Assembly (NCBI GenBank): GCA_021793295.1
Contig: JAJYTA010000008.1
Location: 1-55,896 of the forward strand
Reading direction: 5' to 3'
DNA: 55,896 nucleotides
From: Actinomycetes bacterium
Lineage (GTDB): Bacteria > Actinomycetota > Actinomycetes > Jiangellales > Jiangellaceae
A program made the translations under genes and the position numbers. The notes below the pieces were generated by a model. That model searched no databases and was not told where the DNA came from. It saw only the letters and a program-made list of their open reading frames with translations. This document shows, in pieces, positions 44,655 to 53,208 of the stretch. Each line of letters opens with the position of its first letter. Positions within the stretch are counted from its first letter, which is position 1.

Positions 44655-44766
44655 CCGATCCGCTCGGCTCGAATCGACGACGACTTCTCGGTGCCAAGAT
44701 CGGGTACGGCGCGATCCGTATTAGGCTGTCGAGCCATCCGCTCCAGCGATGTACCGGAGGCAGAAG

Positions 44767-45600
44767 ATGACGCCCGCTTCGTCGGGAAGTGCCCGCCCGC
44801 CCGTAGGTGTCGACCCCACTCGGCCCAGTATCGCCCGGGTGTATGACGCCGGCCTCGGCGGCAAGGACAACTACGAAGTCGACCGTGCCGTTCTCGCCGA
44901 GCTCAAAGAGGTCTTCCCGCAGGTCGTCGAATTCGCGTGGACCGGACGGAACTTCCTCATCCGGGTGGCCCGGTTTCTGGCCCAGCAGACCGACATCACC
45001 CAGTTCATCGACTGTGGTTCCGGATTGCCGACGGCTGAGAACACCCATCAGGTCGTGCAGCGTATGGACCCCGACGCGCGCGTGGTCTACATCGACAACG
45101 ACCCGGTGGTGCTGGCCCACGGCCGCGCCCTGCTCGAGGACAACGATCAGACGTTCCTCGCCGATGCCGACCTGTTCCAACCGCGTCAGGTGCTCGAGCA
45201 CCCGATCGTGCAGCGGCACTTGGACCTCAGTGAACCGGTCGCCCTGCTGCAGATCAGTACGCTGCACCATCACGTGGGTGAGCGGCACGAACCGGCCCAG
45301 ATCATGAAGGAGTACGTCGACGCGCTGCCGTCCGGCTCGTTCGTGGCCATCGGGCATTTCTGCGACCCGGAGAACGAGTACACCGAGAAGGCGCGGGACT
45401 TCGAGCGCGTGTTGTCCGAAGGCGATCTGGGCAGTGGCACGTTCCGGACCATGTCCGAAATCGAAGAGTTGTTCCCGGGCCTGGAGATGATGCCGCCCGG
45501 CGTCGTACCGGTCGTGGACTGGTGGCCCGAGGGCCCGAAACTGAAGCAGCCGGACGAGACGCACTTCCTGTTCGCCGGTGGCGTGGGTCGCAAGCCGTGA
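44767..45600 (+). CDS. SAM-dependent methyltransferase (DUF574 / PF04672 type), copy 1
   Basis: This 277-residue protein belongs to an actinobacterial S-adenosylmethionine methyltransferase family. The N-terminus has VDPTRPSIARVYDAGLGGKD, the SAM-binding motif I is FIDCGSGLPTAENTH, and VVYIDNDPVVLAHGRALL is the acidic loop that binds the ribose. GGAGG lies just before the ATG at 44767; the in-frame ATG at 44749 would include it. TAGGCT (44722-44727) may be its -10 element. Substrates of this family are not known to me. A close paralogue follows at 45756. Confidence 0.88.
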   Translation: MTPASSGSARPPVGVDPTRPSIARVYDAGLGGKDNYEVDRAVLAELKEVFPQVVEFAWTGRNFLIRVARFLAQQTDITQFIDCGSGLPTAENTHQVVQRMDPDARVVYIDNDPVVLAHGRALLEDNDQTFLADADLFQPRQVLEHPIVQRHLDLSEPVALLQISTLHHHVGERHEPAQIMKEYVDALPSGSFVAIGHFCDPENEYTEKARDFERVLSEGDLGSGTFRTMSEIEELFPGLEMMPPGVVPVVDWWPEGPKLKQPDETHFLFAGGVGRKP

Positions 45601-45755
45601 CGTTCCGGCCGCCGTGTTCATCGGTGATGACTCGCGGTGACCAGTGCAGTTCTCGTCGTTTCCGAATGAGCGGCAGTGCGGGGTGTTCGGAGTCGACGTG
45701 GCGGTTTACGCTGGATCCCCACTCGACTTGATCACGATGACCGGAGGCAGCAGAA

Positions 45756-46586
45756 ATGACCCCTGCCGACTCGGCTGACAAGGTGCCGCCTGTCGGTGTC
45801 GATCCCACGCGCCCGAGCGTGGCGCGCATGTACGACGCCGCGCTGGGTGGCAAAGACAACTACGAGATCGACCGTGCGATGCTCGCCCAGGTTCAGCAGG
45901 CCGCGCCGCACGTCATCGACTTGGCGCGAGCTGCGCGCGCCTTCTTGATCCGGGTCGCTCGGTTCCTGGCCTATCAGACCGACATCACCCAGTTCATCGA
46001 CTGTGGTTCCGGGCTGCCGACGGCTGAGAACACCCACGAGGTGCTGCAGCGGGTGAATCCGGACGCGCGCGTGGTCTACATCGACAACGACCCGGTGGTC
46101 ATGGCCCACGGCCGCGCCCTGCTGGCCGACAACGAGAAGACGTTCCTCGCCGGAGCCGACGTCTTCGAGCCGCAGCAGGTTCTGCAGAACAAGGAGGTGC
46201 GAGAGCACCTCGACCTGTCCGAGCCGGTCGGGCTGCTGCACATCAGCACGCTGCACTACCACGTGGGCGCCGCCGACGGACCGGCGAAGATCATGCGCGA
46301 GTACGTCGACGCGCTGGCGCCCGGTTCGTACGTCGCGATCGCGCACATGCACGACCCGGAGAACGAGTACACGCCGATGGCTCGCGAGGTCGAGCAGATC
46401 ATGCGTCAGGGTGTGGGCGCCGCGACGTTCCGGACCAAGGCACAGATCGAGGAGCTGTTCACCGGGTTGGAGTTGTTGCCGCCTGGTGTGGTGCCGTGCG
46501 TCGAATGGTGGCCGGACGGTCCCCAGCTCAAGCAGCGCAACGAGGTCGATCACCTGATGGCCGGTGGGGTCGCGCGCAAACTCTGA
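45756..46586 (+). CDS. SAM-dependent methyltransferase (DUF574 / PF04672 type), copy 2
   Basis: This 276-residue paralogue of the preceding gene is nearly colinear with it and shares long blocks such as QTDITQFIDCGSGLPTAENT and ARVVYIDNDPVV. The leader is also alike: both have CCGGAGGCAG just upstream of ATGAC. The 155-base gap between the copies has no ORF of interest. The pair looks like a tandem duplication followed by divergence, with the substrate region (LEPQ, LQNKEV) differing most. Confidence 0.88.
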   Translation: MTPADSADKVPPVGVDPTRPSVARMYDAALGGKDNYEIDRAMLAQVQQAAPHVIDLARAARAFLIRVARFLAYQTDITQFIDCGSGLPTAENTHEVLQRVNPDARVVYIDNDPVVMAHGRALLADNEKTFLAGADVFEPQQVLQNKEVREHLDLSEPVGLLHISTLHYHVGAADGPAKIMREYVDALAPGSYVAIAHMHDPENEYTPMAREVEQIMRQGVGAATFRTKAQIEELFTGLELLPPGVVPCVEWWPDGPQLKQRNEVDHLMAGGVARKL

Positions 46587-46740
46587 GCACCGTCGACGAA
46601 ACCGACTGGTGACATTCCGGCAGTGCATTCGCTATTGACGTCGGAGTCAGGTATCGACAACCTGTGTCGTGGCGTACGCCCGTCGTTCATGTGCAGCCGA
46701 TACGGTCGCTGCCGTCGACGTTGTCATACGGAGGTTACTC

Positions 46741-49098
46741 ATGCGCCTGACCAGGCGTCTTTATCGTGTAGGCGCCGTCGGCGCCGCCTTCGGCCTCGCG
46801 ACGAGCGGCTTGTTGTCGGTGCCGTCCGCCGCCATGGACGAGCCGGGGGAGACCGTCGATGTGGACATTCTCGGTATCAACGATTTCCACGGACGCCTCG
46901 AGGCTGACGGCCAAGCCGCGGGTGCAGCGCTACTGGCTGGCGCAGTGGACGAGATCCGCGGCGACAACCCGAACACGGTGTTCGCCGCCGCCGGCGACCT
47001 GATCGGCGCCTCGACGTTCGTCTCTTTCGTCGATGACGACAATCCCACCATCGACGCGCTCAATGCGGCGGGCCTCGACGTCAGCGCAGTGGGCAATCAC
47101 GAGTTCGACAAGGGCTACTGCGACCTGGTCGATCGCGTCATCCCGCGCGCTAGCTGGGAATACCTGGGCGCGAACGTCAAGGTCAAGAGCGGCCAGACAC
47201 ACGGGTGCGAGAACGCCGAGCTGGAAGACCTGGCGGAGTCGTGGACGACCGAGCTGGACGGCGTCACCGTGGGCTTCGTGGGCGCGGTGACCGAGCACTT
47301 GCCGGAACTGGTCAGCCCGGACGGCATCGCCTCCGTGGACGTCCTCGACGTCGTCGAAGAGACCAACCGCGTCGCCGACGAGCTCAAGGCCGACGGCGCG
47401 GACATCGTGGTCCTGCTCGTGCACGAAGGCGCCGCGACCACGGACGTCGAATCCGCCACCGACCCGAACACGGACTTCGGTGCCATCGTCACCGGCGCGA
47501 ACGCCAACGTCGACGCCATCATCTCCGGGCACACGCACCTGGCCTACGACCACGACGTCGAGGTGGCCGAGTGGGTGGACGAGGGACGCACGGTCACCGA
47601 GCGGCCCGTCGTCAGCGCCGGCCAGTACGGCTACAACCTCAACCAGCTCAGCTTCACCTACGACACCGAAGCTGAAGCCGTCACCGCGATCGAGTCGGCG
47701 ATCCTGCCCCTGACCGTCGAGGACGACGAGGGCAACTGGGTGCCCAACCCCGAGTACGAGCCCGACCCCGAGGTCCAGGCGATCGTCGATGATGCGGTCG
47801 CCAAGGCCGAGGAGCTCGGCGCGGAGTCGCTCGGCGAGATCACGGCGGACTTCAACCGCGCCCAGCAGAGTGATGGCACCGAGAACCGTGGCGGCGAGTC
47901 GACGCTGGGCAACTTCGTCGCCGACGTCCAGCTCGCCGCTGCGCAGGTGACCGATCCCGCGACGCAGATCGCCGTGATGAACCCCGGTGGGCTGCGCACC
48001 GACATGACCTATGCCGGCACCGGTGAAAGCGACCCGGACGGCAACGTCACCTACCGCGAGGCCGCCGAGGTGCAGCCGTTCGCCAACACGCTGGTCACCC
48101 TGACCCTGACCGGCGAGCAGGTCGTCCAGGTGCTGGAGGAGCAATGGCAGCCCGACGGTGCGAGCCGGCCGTTCCTCAAGCTCGGCGTCTCCGCGGGGCT
48201 GACCTACACCTACGACCCGCAGGCCGCCGACGGCGAGCACGTCACCTCGGTGACCTTCGACGGTCAGCCACTGGATCCCGAGGGTGAGTACCGCGTCGTG
48301 GCGAATTCGTTCCTGGCCTCCGGCGGCGACAACTTCGCGACCCTGGCCGAGGGTACGGACGTCGCCGACACCGGACAGATCGACTTGCAGGCCATGGTCG
48401 ACTACCTGGCCGCGAACTCGCCGGCGGCACCGGACTACGCGCAGCGCGCCGTCGGGGTCAGCTGGGTCAGCGATCCCGACGCGGTGTACGAACCGGGCGA
48501 CAAGCTCGAACTCGAGCTGTCCTCGCTGCTGTTCAGCACCAGCGAGCCGGTGGACGAGACGGCGTCGGTCACGCTCGGCGGGGTCGACCTCGGCACGGTG
48601 ACCGTCGACGACACGATCATCGACACGACCGACGAGGTCGGCCGGGCGCACGTCAGCGTCACGGTGCCCGACGACGTCGCCGCGGAGGGGGCGCAGCTCG
48701 CTGCGGCGACGGAGACCAAGCTCGTGGTCACCTTGCCCGAGACCGGCACGACGGTCACCGTGCCCGTGACCGTGGACCCGCAGGGGTCGGGGACCGACGA
48801 CGGTACGGAAACCGGCGACGAGACCGGTGACGTGTCGGGTACGGACGACGGTGCGGAGACCGGTGACGTGTCCGGTACGGACGACGGTGCGGAGACCGGT
48901 GACGTGTCCGGTACCGACGACGGTGCGGAGACCGGGGACGAGACCGGTACCGACGACGGTACCGAACTCCCGGACACCGGGTCGTCCGGCATCCAGTGGT
49001 GGCTGATCATCGGTATCGCGGTGCTCGTCGTGGGCGGCGTCTTGTACGCGCTGTCAAGGCGCAAGGGCTCGACCTCCGCCGGCAGCTCCGACAGCTGA
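46741..49098 (+). CDS. LPDTG-anchored 5'-nucleotidase / metallophosphatase
   Basis: This 785-residue surface enzyme of the bifunctional UDP-sugar hydrolase/5'-nucleotidase family releases phosphate from extracellular nucleotides. A signal peptide covers 1-31. The metallophosphatase domain has Asp48/His50 (GINDFHGRLE), Asp86 (AAGDLIGAS), Asn119-His120 (GNHEF) and the GHTH motif (ISGHTHLAYD). The C-terminal nucleotide-binding domain contains MNPGGLRTDM and NSFLASGGDNF. Three VSGTDDGAETGD repeats form a linker before LPDTG (743-747), a transmembrane helix and an RRKG tail, the layout of a sortase substrate. GGAGG lies six bases before the ATG. The next gene is also LPDTG-anchored. Confidence 0.93.
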   Translation: MRLTRRLYRVGAVGAAFGLATSGLLSVPSAAMDEPGETVDVDILGINDFHGRLEADGQAAGAALLAGAVDEIRGDNPNTVFAAAGDLIGASTFVSFVDDDNPTIDALNAAGLDVSAVGNHEFDKGYCDLVDRVIPRASWEYLGANVKVKSGQTHGCENAELEDLAESWTTELDGVTVGFVGAVTEHLPELVSPDGIASVDVLDVVEETNRVADELKADGADIVVLLVHEGAATTDVESATDPNTDFGAIVTGANANVDAIISGHTHLAYDHDVEVAEWVDEGRTVTERPVVSAGQYGYNLNQLSFTYDTEAEAVTAIESAILPLTVEDDEGNWVPNPEYEPDPEVQAIVDDAVAKAEELGAESLGEITADFNRAQQSDGTENRGGESTLGNFVADVQLAAAQVTDPATQIAVMNPGGLRTDMTYAGTGESDPDGNVTYREAAEVQPFANTLVTLTLTGEQVVQVLEEQWQPDGASRPFLKLGVSAGLTYTYDPQAADGEHVTSVTFDGQPLDPEGEYRVVANSFLASGGDNFATLAEGTDVADTGQIDLQAMVDYLAANSPAAPDYAQRAVGVSWVSDPDAVYEPGDKLELELSSLLFSTSEPVDETASVTLGGVDLGTVTVDDTIIDTTDEVGRAHVSVTVPDDVAAEGAQLAAATETKLVVTLPETGTTVTVPVTVDPQGSGTDDGTETGDETGDVSGTDDGAETGDVSGTDDGAETGDVSGTDDGAETGDETGTDDGTELPDTGSSGIQWWLIIGIAVLVVGGVLYALSRRKGSTSAGSSDS
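48829..48936 (+). repeat. Three 36-bp tandem repeats encoding DVSGTDDGAETG
   Basis: Three near-identical 36-base units (48829-48864, 48865-48900, 48901-48936) encode an acidic Gly/Thr-rich stalk just before the LPDTG anchor of the nucleotidase. Related partial units flank them. The units differ at only a few bases, so they arose recently and may vary in number. Confidence 0.85.
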
Positions 49099-49163
49099 CG
49101 TCCGCCATTCCCCGACTCAACATCGCCGGCCCCGGCGCGACGGGCCCGGCCGGAGGTAACGCG

Positions 49164-51863
49164 ATGCGCGAGACCATTCGACGCCGCCCCGTGCGGGCGG
49201 CACTCGCCGGGTGCACCGCGGCCGTCGTGGCCGGGGTCGGCGGAATCGTCATGCCAGTGGGCTCGGCGCAGCCGGCGAGTGCGGACGAGCCAGGCCCGTT
49301 CATCAGCGAGATCCATTACGACAACGCCGGCACGGACATCGGCGAGGCCATCGAGATCCAGGCCGAGCCCGGAACGAACCTCACCGGCTGGCAGATCGTG
49401 CTCTACAACGGCAACGACGGGGCGGTCTACGACCAGCGCACACTGCGGGGAAGCGTGCCGAGCGCCGGCGTGATGGTGGTCGAGTTCGACACGAACGGGT
49501 TGCAGAACGGGTCGCCCGACGGCGTCGTCCTGGCCAACCGGCAGCGCCAGGTCGTCGAGTTCCTCTCCTACGAGGGAACGTTCGAAGCCCATGGCCGCCC
49601 GGCTGACGGCATGACCAGCGTTGACATCGGCGTCGAGGAGGGGTCGTCCACTCCGGCCGAGTACTCGCTGCAGAAGGTCGACGGCACCTGGATCGGACCG
49701 GTACCGGCCTCGTTCGGCGTGGTGAACGAACCGCCGGACGATGATCCCGGGGAAGGGCAGCCGGCGACGATTCCCGAGATTCAGGGAACGGGCGCGGAAT
49801 CGCCGCTGGTCGGCGAGGTGGTCACCACGTCGGGCGTGGTCACCGCCGCCTACTCCGAGGGCGGATTCGACGGCTACTACATCCAGACCCCGGGCAGCGG
49901 TGGTGACACCGACCTCGACGAGCGGACGGCCTCCGACGCGGTCTTCGTCTACTCACCGGACACGGTGGACGACGTCGCGATCGGCGACTACGTCGAAGTC
50001 ACCGGCGAGGTGAGCGAGTTCAACGGGCTGACTGAGATCACGGTGGCCGACGGCGGCGTGGTGGAGCTCGATGAAGCCGCCGAAGCGGTGAAACCGGTCG
50101 CGTTCCGGCTGCCGGAGGACGACGAGCGTCGTGAGGTGTTCGAGGGCATGCTCGTCCAGCCGGCCGAGGGCTACGTCGTGTCCGACACCTACGCGCTCGG
50201 CGGATGGGGTAGCGCCGCGTTCGGCTCCATCGGTCTCGGCTTCGGCGGGCCGCTGGTCCAAGAGACCGATGTCGCCGCGCCAGGGTCACCGGAGTACGAC
50301 GCGGCCGTGGCCGACAACGCGGCTCGCGCTGTCACGCTGGACGACGGCCGCTCGGAGCGTACGTCCACCGACAGCCTGGTGCCGTACCTACCAGCGGACG
50401 TGCCGCCGCGCACCGGGGCCGTGGCGTCGTTCCACACGAGCATGATCTTCGACTACCGCTTCCAGTGGAACTTTCAGCCCACGACGCCGGTCGACGGCCC
50501 GGCACCGGACGTCGTCACCTTCGACTCGGGCAACACGCGCCAAGCCAACAGCACGCCGGAAGACGTCGGCGGCGAAGTCACCCTGGCCACGTTCAACGTG
50601 CTGAACTACTTCACCACGTTGGGTGTGGACCTCGACGGGTGCGAGCCGTACACCGACCGCGACGGCAATCCGATCAGTGTCAGCGGCGGCTGCGATGCAC
50701 GCGGTGCGTGGGACCCGGAGAACCTCGCCCGGCAGGAAGGCAAGATCGTCGCGGCGATCAACGGGCTCGACGCCGACGTCGTATCCCTCGAGGAGATCGA
50801 GAATTCGGCGAAGTTCGGCCAGGACCGCGACGAAGCGCTGGCCACCCTCGTGGCCGCCCTGAACACTGCGGCGGGTGCCGGCACGTGGGCGTATGCCGAG
50901 TCCCCGGCGGACCTGCCGGACCTGGACGAACAGGACGTCATCCGCAACGCCTTCATCTATCGCACGGCAGCGGTCGAGCCGGTGGGTGAGTCGGTGGTAC
51001 TGACCGGCTCTGCGGCCTTCGCCAATGCTCGCGAGCCGCTGGCTCAACAATTCCGGGTCCGCGGGTCCGGGTACACGTTCCTCGCGATCGTGAACCACTT
51101 CAAGTCCAAGGGCGGTGACTGCGGCGACCCGGCCCCGCCCGAAGGCTGCTTCGACGCCGACCGGGTGGCGCAGGCCGAGGCCCTGGTGGCCTTCGCCGAC
51201 GACCTCGTCGCGGCCTCGGATACCCAGGACGTGTTCCTGCTCGGGGACTTCAATGCGTACACGCAGGAGAACCCGATGCAGGTGTTCTACGACGCGGGGT
51301 ACACGAACCTCAACGAGGCCTTCGCCGGCGAGCAGACCTACGTCTTCGACGGCAAGGTCGGTTCGCTGGACCACGTCCTGGCCAGTTCCTCGGTGCTGGA
51401 TGACGACCTGATCCGCGGCGTGGACGTGTGGAACGTCAACTCCGTCGAGTCGGTGCTGTTCGAGTACTCCCGGTACAACTACTTCGCCAGCGAGCTGTTC
51501 GACGGCAATTCAGTGTTCCGGGCCAGCGACCATGATCCGATCCTGGTCGGGATCGGTCCGGGTGACGGGACGGACGAGCCGGACGAACCCGGTGACGGTG
51601 ACGAGTCCGGCGAGGCGGAGCAGCCGAACGACCCCGAGGAACCCGGCGACGACCATGCCGACGACCGGGCCGACGACGACAATGCCGCGGGCGCCGGTGA
51701 CGGTGGCGCGGACCAGCCGGGAACCGGTGATGACGCCGGCGCGGCGCTGCCGGACACCGGGGCACCGGCCGGCGGGCTGACGCTTCTCGCTGCCGCGGCG
51801 TTGCTGATCGGCGCCGGTCTGGCGCTGCGCCACGTACGCCGCGTTGTCGGCGTGAGCGTCTAG
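49164..51863 (+). CDS. LPDTG-anchored extracellular nuclease (ExeM/NucH-like)
   Basis: This 899-residue secreted protein has a signal peptide (about 1-40, ending PASADE) and a lamin-tail domain (about 45-155, FISEIHYDNAGTDIGEAIEI). An OB-fold-like region follows (about 195-330), then an exo/endonuclease/phosphatase domain (about 470-800) with TLATFNVLNYF, VSLEEIEN (metal Glu), VNHFKSKGG, LLGDFNAYTQE and SDHDPILV. The tail has an acidic stalk, LPDTG (862-866), a membrane helix and RHVRR. It most likely degrades extracellular DNA at the cell surface. The ATG at 49164 has CGGAGGT six bases upstream. Its start is 65 bases after the nucleotidase stop, so the two enzymes are probably co-expressed. 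Confidence 0.9.
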   Translation: MRETIRRRPVRAALAGCTAAVVAGVGGIVMPVGSAQPASADEPGPFISEIHYDNAGTDIGEAIEIQAEPGTNLTGWQIVLYNGNDGAVYDQRTLRGSVPSAGVMVVEFDTNGLQNGSPDGVVLANRQRQVVEFLSYEGTFEAHGRPADGMTSVDIGVEEGSSTPAEYSLQKVDGTWIGPVPASFGVVNEPPDDDPGEGQPATIPEIQGTGAESPLVGEVVTTSGVVTAAYSEGGFDGYYIQTPGSGGDTDLDERTASDAVFVYSPDTVDDVAIGDYVEVTGEVSEFNGLTEITVADGGVVELDEAAEAVKPVAFRLPEDDERREVFEGMLVQPAEGYVVSDTYALGGWGSAAFGSIGLGFGGPLVQETDVAAPGSPEYDAAVADNAARAVTLDDGRSERTSTDSLVPYLPADVPPRTGAVASFHTSMIFDYRFQWNFQPTTPVDGPAPDVVTFDSGNTRQANSTPEDVGGEVTLATFNVLNYFTTLGVDLDGCEPYTDRDGNPISVSGGCDARGAWDPENLARQEGKIVAAINGLDADVVSLEEIENSAKFGQDRDEALATLVAALNTAAGAGTWAYAESPADLPDLDEQDVIRNAFIYRTAAVEPVGESVVLTGSAAFANAREPLAQQFRVRGSGYTFLAIVNHFKSKGGDCGDPAPPEGCFDADRVAQAEALVAFADDLVAASDTQDVFLLGDFNAYTQENPMQVFYDAGYTNLNEAFAGEQTYVFDGKVGSLDHVLASSSVLDDDLIRGVDVWNVNSVESVLFEYSRYNYFASELFDGNSVFRASDHDPILVGIGPGDGTDEPDEPGDGDESGEAEQPNDPEEPGDDHADDRADDDNAAGAGDGGADQPGTGDDAGAALPDTGAPAGGLTLLAAAALLIGAGLALRHVRRVVGVSV

Positions 51864-51866
51864 AGT
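51861..51866 (+). promoter_or_regulatory. -10 element TAGAGT overlapping the nuclease stop codon
   Basis: TAGAGT fits TANNNT; its first three bases are the TAG stop codon of the nuclease gene. Seven bases (GCTGGCG) separate it from the ATG of the M20 peptidase at 51874, so the message is probably leaderless. No Shine-Dalgarno is seen. Confidence 0.5.
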
Positions 51867-51873
51867 GCTGGCG

Positions 51874-53208
51874 ATGAACGACATTGCTGCCGCCGTCGAG
51901 GCGATCCTCCCGTCCGTGCGGGCTGACCTGGAGAAGCTCGTCCGCATCCCCAGCGTGAGCGCCGAACCCGCTCGCGCCGACGACGTCCGGGCCAGTGCGG
52001 AGGCGGTCGCGGCGCTGGCGCGGGCCGAGAATGCCGCACAGGTCGACGTCCTCAGCGTCGACGGCGGCGCCCCGGCGGTCATCGCCAACTGGCCCGCACC
52101 GCCCGGTGCGCCCACCGTGCTGCTCTACGCCCACCATGACGTCCAGCCGACCGGGCCGGCCGACGCCTGGGGCAGTGCCCCGTTCGAGCCCACCGAACGC
52201 GGGGGACGCATCTACGGACGCGGCGCCGCGGACGACAAGGCGGGCGTCGCTGCCCATCTCGCGGCGCTGCGGGCCTACGGCGGGCGGCCCCCGGTGGGTG
52301 TGGTCTTGTTCGTCGAGGGTGAGGAAGAGGTCGGCTCGCCCACGTTCACATCGTTCCTGCGCACGTACCGCGACCGGCTGGCCGCCGATGTCATCGTCGT
52401 GGCCGATTCCGTGAACTGGTCCATCGACACTCCGGGCTTGACCACCAGCCTGCGCGGCGGTGTCGACTGCTATGTCGAGCTGCGAATCCTCGACCACGCG
52501 GTGCATTCCGGTATCTTCGGCGGGCCGGTGATCGACGCGTTGACCGCACTGTGCCGGCTGCTGGGCACGTTGCACGACGACAACGGTGACGTAGCGGTGG
52601 CCGGCCTGGTCCACGACGAGGCTCCCGATGTCGACTACCCCGAGGCACGGTTCCGGGCCGAGGCGGGCGTGCTCGACGGTGTCGAGCTGAGCGGCACCGG
52701 CTCGTTGGCCGAGCGACTGTGGACCCGCCCGGCGATCTCGGTCATCGGGATCGACGCGCCGAGCGTCGCCGATGCGGCCAACATCTTGGTGCACCAGGCT
52801 CGGGCGAAGGTGAGCTTGCGACTGGCGCCCAGCCAGGATCCGCGCGCGGCCCTCGATGCGCTCGCCGACCATCTGCGTTCGCACGCCGAGTACGGCGCCC
52901 AGATCAGCATCACCGACGGCATGGTGGGCGCCGGATGCGACCTCGATACGTCCAGCCCGGCGTTTCGGGCGGCCGAGTCGGCATTCGCCGACGCGTTCGG
53001 TCAAGCGCCGGTGCAGTTGGGCATTGGTGGCTCCATCCCGTTCATCGCGGAGTTCGAACGGGAATTTCCCGACGCCACGGTGTTGGTCACGGGCGTGGAA
53101 GACCCTGACTCCCGGGCCCACGGCGTGGACGAGAGCCTGCACGTCGAACAGTTCGGCAAGGTGTGTCTCGCCGAGGCCTTACTGCTGCAGCGACTCGCCG
53201 GCGACTGA
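51874..53208 (+). CDS. M20 family metallopeptidase (dipeptidase)
   Basis: This is a 444-residue cytoplasmic M20 di-zinc peptidase that hydrolyses dipeptides or related amides. Metal and catalytic motifs are LLYAHHDVQPTG, GRGAADDKAGV and VEGEEEVGSP. The dimerisation/lid domain (about 190-300) contains LDHAVHSGIFGGPV, and VDESLHVEQF lies near the C-terminus. I chose ATG 51874 because a -10 element lies seven bases before it; GTG 51865 would overlap that element. It may help use peptides released by secreted proteases. Confidence 0.92.
   Translation: MNDIAAAVEAILPSVRADLEKLVRIPSVSAEPARADDVRASAEAVAALARAENAAQVDVLSVDGGAPAVIANWPAPPGAPTVLLYAHHDVQPTGPADAWGSAPFEPTERGGRIYGRGAADDKAGVAAHLAALRAYGGRPPVGVVLFVEGEEEVGSPTFTSFLRTYRDRLAADVIVVADSVNWSIDTPGLTTSLRGGVDCYVELRILDHAVHSGIFGGPVIDALTALCRLLGTLHDDNGDVAVAGLVHDEAPDVDYPEARFRAEAGVLDGVELSGTGSLAERLWTRPAISVIGIDAPSVADAANILVHQARAKVSLRLAPSQDPRAALDALADHLRSHAEYGAQISITDGMVGAGCDLDTSSPAFRAAESAFADAFGQAPVQLGIGGSIPFIAEFEREFPDATVLVTGVEDPDSRAHGVDESLHVEQFGKVCLAEALLLQRLAGD

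Follow-up and report, generated by a model that had tools for sequence, protein, structure and literature searches.

A predicted wall-anchored 5'-nucleotidase and nuclease encoded by adjacent genes in a Jiangellaceae actinomycete

Introduction

Among the closest described counterparts of the locus studied here are the streptococcal SpnA and S5nA proteins (SpnAi/S5nAi), an LPXTG-anchored nuclease and an LPXTG-anchored 5'-nucleotidase (PMC7564053). Those two are sortase A substrates of a pathogen, whereas the pair described here is encoded by adjacent genes in a genome with class E sortases. To our knowledge, the streptococcal SpnA and S5nA genes are not linked. The nuclease half also resembles ExeM of Shewanella oneidensis, a sugar-unspecific, Ca/Mg-dependent endonuclease of the same LTD - OB-like - EEP family that has a C-terminal membrane segment and a basic end (PMC6085458). 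However, the ExeM tail is of the GlyGly-CTERM/rhombosortase type and ExeM has no partner nucleotidase, while our nuclease ends in LPDTG. As for the anchoring machinery, Streptomyces SrtE1 and SrtE2 are class E sortases, as are both sortases here, which keep the GHY tyrosine (Tyr229 in SrtE1; Tyr229/His251 numbering from PMC5148588), but the Streptomyces substrates carry LAxTG and ours LPDTG. SrtE1 cleaved both LAETG and LPETG in vitro with a 2-fold preference for alanine (PMC5148588), and a class E sortase of B. bifidum was inferred to accept [L/I/V][S/A/P]XTG (PMC8603203).

We analyzed a 55,896-nucleotide stretch of DNA (the window) from a Jiangellaceae genome, in which a 5'-nucleotidase gene is followed by a nuclease gene. 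Neither the enzyme families nor the principle of anchoring is new; the split, doubly anchored arrangement is of modest novelty.

Results and discussion

Architecture of the nucleotidase-nuclease locus

The features of the locus are as follows.

46730 to 46735, plus strand: ribosome-binding site of the nucleotidase gene, GGAGGT, 5 nt before the ATG at 46741
46741 to 49098, plus strand: 5'-nucleotidase (NT5) of the wall-anchored type, 785 aa (PF00149, PF02872, PF00746)
46741 to 46836, plus strand: NT5 signal peptide region MRLTRRLYRVGAVGAAFGLATSGLLSVPSAAM, read directly from the sequence
48811 to 48966, plus strand: NT5 acidic repeat stalk, tandem 36-bp units
48967 to 49095, plus strand: NT5 LPDTG sorting signal LPDTGSSGIQWWLIIGIAVLVVGGVLYALSRRKGSTSAGSSDS (PF00746, TIGR01167)
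49152 to 49157, plus strand: ribosome-binding site of the nuclease gene, GGAGGT, 6 nt before the ATG at 49164
49164 to 51863, plus strand: ExeM/NucH-family extracellular nuclease, 899 aa (NF033681, PF03372)
51555 to 51746, plus strand: nuclease acidic stalk, by residue composition
51747 to 51860, plus strand: nuclease LPDTG sorting signal LPDTGAPAGGLTLLAAAALLIGAGLALRHVRRVVGVSV (TIGR01167; position kept in relatives)
51865 to 53208, plus strand: open reading frame of a syntenic neighbor, presumably an M20-type peptidase

The NT5 frame, read directly, runs from the ATG at 46741 to a stop at 49098 and contains Metallophos (E-value of 7e-8), 5_nucleotid_C (2e-41) and Gram_pos_anchor (4e-5) domains; the anchor was also matched by TIGR01167 LPXTG_anchor (2e-5), which makes it firm. 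NT5 aligned end to end with UshA 1USH, 3IVD and 2Z1A, and it combines the metallophosphoesterase and 5_nucleotid_C domains with the metal and substrate motifs of UshA-type 5'-nucleotidases (NDFH47, AGD84, GNHE118, VHEG227, SGHTH262, GGLR and QPFAN). It should work like the streptococcal surface 5'-nucleotidases but is no member of their models NF047875 and NF040549 (169 and 74.5 bits, cut-off of 1050), and it stayed far under every equivalog cut-off, with the multifunctional and UshA families matched only below theirs. Ahead of the sorting signal stands a stalk of 52 residues, 19 acidic and none basic, with a repeat period of 36 bp and 3.9 copies by tandem-repeat analysis.

The nuclease frame begins with the ATG at 49164, 65 nt beyond NT5, ends with a stop at 51863, again by direct reading, and encodes a lamin-tail-like N-terminus, a middle region and an EEP catalytic domain. 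It scored 545 bits on ExeM_NucH_DNase (NF033681; cut-off of 300) over residues 222 to 797, which places the protein in this family, and the Exo_endo_phos domain was matched with an E-value of 6e-7. All the EEP catalytic residues (N, E, H-x-x-K, D-x-N, S-D-H) are present in the motifs FNVLN477, EEIEN543, NHFKSK644, GDFNAY694 and SDHDP788 and are invariant across an alignment of 11 nucleases. The lamin-tail domain is weak in the window nuclease (19.6 bits, under the Pfam cut-off of 34.3), and it was matched in 7 of the 11 aligned members, the best with 3e-12. A PDB sequence search with the nuclease gave no match. Its stalk holds 63 residues, of which 24 are acidic and one is basic.

The layout of an LPXTG substrate, that is, LPxTG followed by a membrane helix and a basic C-terminal end, is clear in NT5 and borderline by HMM in the nuclease, whose sorting signal scored 19.7 bits, or 20.3 with its neighbors, against a cut-off of 20; by TIGR01167 it scored 19.3 bits, above the cut-off. 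Because the signal is conserved in the sister genome of the same genus, G001 (LPDTGAGLGGW...RPRRR), and in two nucleases of the g6 genomes (LPDTGAG/LPDTGSG...SRRR), we consider it supported despite the borderline HMM score. Open reading frames, C-termini and HMMs thus agree with the original prediction of neighboring 5'-nucleotidase and nuclease proteins, each with a signal peptide, an acidic stalk, LPDTG, a helix and basic residues.

The putative M20 gene starts with GTG at 51865 or ATG at 51874, only 1 to 10 nt past the nuclease stop, and given this spacing the two genes probably share one transcript. Between NT5 and the nuclease, a consensus scan, which is a weak tool in high-GC actinomycetes, found neither promoter nor terminator. 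Upstream of the pair (44749 to 46586) lie two paralogous genes in tandem, whose products resemble SAM-dependent methyltransferases and by eye are of the DUF574 type; one methyltransferase-like gene also lies upstream in G001, and none was found adjoining the Jiangella pairs.

Conservation of the pair in Jiangellaceae

Among the 22 Jiangellaceae genomes compared, 14 have NT5 and the nuclease as direct neighbors on one strand, NT5 first (2 of the window genus, g1, and 12 of Jiangella, g3). The order nucleotidase-nuclease-M20 peptidase was kept in 14/14 genomes examined of these two genera, the M20 gene adjoining the nuclease on the same strand in every one (13 and the window), and the C-terminus of NT5 is LPDTG in all 14. 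The nuclease tail behaves differently from this constant order. LPDTG is found on it in g1 and in two g6 genomes (G010 and G012), while in Jiangella the nuclease closes with a FIMAH domain or with RTX repeats and has no sorting signal, as judged by HMM where members were scanned and elsewhere from the C-terminal sequence. Since the gene order is constant while the nuclease tails differ, the sequences indicate that the enzyme pairing is what is kept and the attachment mode of the nuclease is swapped. Double anchoring as a conserved feature is therefore ruled out by the Jiangella nucleases; LPDTG on both enzymes with adjacent genes occurs only in the genus of the window.

The C-terminal module of orthologous nucleases varies among LPDTG anchor, FIMAH and RTX (for example, L096:5325-8018 and L090:5310-7943), and the nuclease of G021 is identical to that of L120. 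For g6, the nucleotidase lies away from the locus in G010 and G012 and was not found in G006, G008 and G014. In the former two genomes (L192 on G010:C34 and L202 on G012:C5), the nucleotidase elsewhere in the genome has a different anchor, and the G012 frame is broken at about residue 176 beside a stretch of N, possibly by masking or an assembly gap.

Fused nuclease-nucleotidase proteins in Actinomycetota

To look beyond Jiangellaceae, we fetched 80 named loci (L109 to L188) with the nuclease profile, one of which is nevertheless Jiangella muralis itself; contig ends truncate some of these loci. Nuclease and nucleotidase are joined in one open frame of about 1350 to 1740 aa in 51 of the 80, including loci of Arthrobacter, Actinoplanes, Micromonospora and Microbacterium; the two are neighboring genes in 6, and no nucleotidase lies near the nuclease in the other 23. 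The fused proteins have the same two catalytic modules as the window pair, and some are likewise anchored. However, they are single polypeptides with the nuclease first (51/51), whereas the window has two genes, nucleotidase first, with one anchor each. Nine of them, including those of Microbacterium, Plantibacter, Compostimonas and Galactobacter, carry their own LA/LP/LSxTG-type anchors, which suggests that wall-bound nuclease-nucleotidase combinations are widespread. No published report of the actinobacterial fusion was found in the open-access literature, where absence is not proof.

On the well-supported branches of quick trees with SH-aLRT support only, the nuclease tree required at least 6 changes for the fused state and at least 4 for the split state, and the nucleotidase tree at least 5 for each, so the physical linkage appears to have been kept or regained repeatedly. 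The fused protein of Occultella glacieicola (Ruaniaceae; L176:5713-10674) shares 68% identity with the Jiangellaceae nuclease and clusters with the Jiangellaceae nucleases with 100% support in the nuclease tree, which suggests horizontal transfer between orders. Fusion of the two enzymes is the strongest evidence for joint action of their activities.

Sortases and the LPDTG signal

No sortase is encoded in the window, as the original prediction had stated, and two are found elsewhere. Regarding sortases and PENTAPEPTIDE, searches of this 99.99% complete genome of 4.67 Mb found exactly two sortase genes (contigs C266 and C200), and both products are of class E (NF033747; 209 and 213 bits, cut-off of 160). 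When aligned to SrtE1, they keep the catalytic Cys/His/Arg with the TLTTCWPR, GHY and HR motifs. The GHY tyrosine, the S3-site residue equivalent to Tyr229 of SrtE1, is retained in both, which rules out its loss as the cause of LPDTG use. Class E sortases above the cut-off were present in all 20 well-assembled Jiangellaceae genomes.

HMM and pattern searches, whose list may be incomplete, predicted 14 anchored proteins in the genome: 11 with LPDTG and one each with LPQTG, LPTTG and LADTG. Across Jiangellaceae, LPDTG made up 20 of the 21 distinct signals among the best anchor matches read, a count biased against LAxTG because the anchor HMM prefers LPxTG. As the main signal of this genome and the dominant one among the best-scoring matches of the family, LPDTG is not an anomaly; these sequences mark it as ordinary for the lineage, so that the contrast with LAxTG, noted in the original prediction, carries little weight. 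The search for an LPxTG-competent sortase thus yielded two class E enzymes in a genome with LPDTG as its main signal, and on this evidence it is plausible that a sortase of this genome can process LPDTG. Two class E sortases with mostly LPDTG predicted substrates also make a clean case for asking whether class E enzymes really prefer alanine at position two of the signal.

Proposed function of the pair

The sequences show the domains and families, the catalytic motifs and signals, the set of sortases, and the conserved linkage and fusion; from these we infer catalytic activity, wall linkage, co-transcription and a nutritional role (phosphate, purines). The pair probably constitutes a cell-surface nucleic-acid scavenging unit in which nuclease and nucleotidase are both held at the wall, a split form of a commonly fused team. 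Both precursors would be exported through their signal peptides, cleaved at LPDT|G and attached to peptidoglycan by the class E sortases of the genome. The ExeM/NucH nuclease would then cleave extracellular DNA, possibly also RNA, into fragments with 5' phosphates; phosphate would be stripped from nucleotides by the UshA-type nucleotidase, and the released nucleosides and phosphate would be taken up. Because an endonuclease alone may yield mostly oligonucleotides, unusable by NT5, this scheme may lack an exonuclease or phosphodiesterase step. The functional pairing of the two enzymes is well supported by the comparisons, and the original idea of a two-enzyme assembly line gains strength from the 14/14 adjacency in g1 and Jiangella and from the fusion in most actinobacterial relatives; shared anchoring would not be essential to it, because the Jiangella nucleases lack any sorting signal.

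A different role for the same pair would be mainly to clear the hyphal surface of nucleotide signals or of extracellular DNA that stems from biofilm matrix or lysed neighbors, with nutrients secondary. Such a role has precedents, since Shewanella ExeM is needed for normal biofilm formation (PMC6085458) and streptococcal wall-anchored SpnA/S5nA-type pairs serve immune evasion (PMC7564053). We nevertheless consider it unlikely here, because the coupling of nucleotidase to nuclease, in gene order and in repeated fusion, better suits nutrient release. Jiangellaceae, moreover, are environmental actinomycetes. Even less probable to us is that two unrelated surface enzymes share the locus and act on separate substrates, the nucleotidase, for example, on nucleotide sugars or cyclic nucleotides. 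It is true that the g6 nuclease persists without an adjoining nucleotidase, that the nuclease stands alone in 23/80 relatives and that the family matches of NT5 are below cut-off, but 14/14 adjacency in g1 and g3 together with 51 fusions in many families is not easily accounted for unless the two enzymes are functionally linked.

If the scavenging reading holds, the host, a soil-type actinobacterium, should strip DNA or RNA to nucleosides and phosphate at its wall. Three independent signs (adjacency, repeated fusion and shared anchor type) join two known enzyme families into one surface system, and wall-bound DNA use in non-pathogenic actinobacteria becomes directly testable.

Small genes in the nucleotidase slot

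In g6 (Phytoactinopolyspora-like) and g2 (G002) genomes, the NT5 slot is occupied by a frame of 67 to 86 aa in which a signal peptide leads within about 10 residues into L(A/P)DTGSS, followed by a membrane anchor like that of NT5. These micro-genes, from six Jiangellaceae genomes, are located as follows.

L102:5602-5895, micro-gene
L103:5618-5908, micro-gene
L104:5159-5743, micro-gene
L105:5872-6120, micro-gene
L279:6877-7092, micro-gene
L280:6279-6560, micro-gene

Their window counterpart is the two ends of NT5 (46741 to 46836 and 48967 to 49095); identity is about 65% between the signal half and the Jiangella NT5 signal peptides, and 66% between the anchor half and the anchor of the window NT5. 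The nucleotidase domain may either have dropped out of such a shell or have been inserted into it. With dN/dS values of 0.22 to 0.52 among four micro-genes, over few codons, the gene is by this measure under purifying selection. In a class-wide search of 395 genomes, full-length matches occurred only in the six Jiangellaceae genomes, and the proteins scored below the cut-off of the NCBIfam small-LAXTG-protein model. In G002 and G008, the micro-gene lies directly ahead of the M20 gene and the nuclease ortholog is absent. All 20 well-assembled Jiangellaceae genomes have one LPDTGSS-anchor locus ahead of the M20 gene, with a nucleotidase inside in 14 and empty in 6.

The predicted wall-bound product of the empty form is a peptide of about ten residues. 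It is conceivable, though we hold it only tentatively and rather doubt it, that the NT5 signal peptide and LPDTGSS anchor form a cassette that has its own role, the empty form being a minimal sortase substrate that serves anchoring or signaling itself and not cargo display. The sole LADTG signal found in the window genome belongs to a 94-aa protein (L049; G000:C128:27367-27651), which is possibly a second small sortase substrate.
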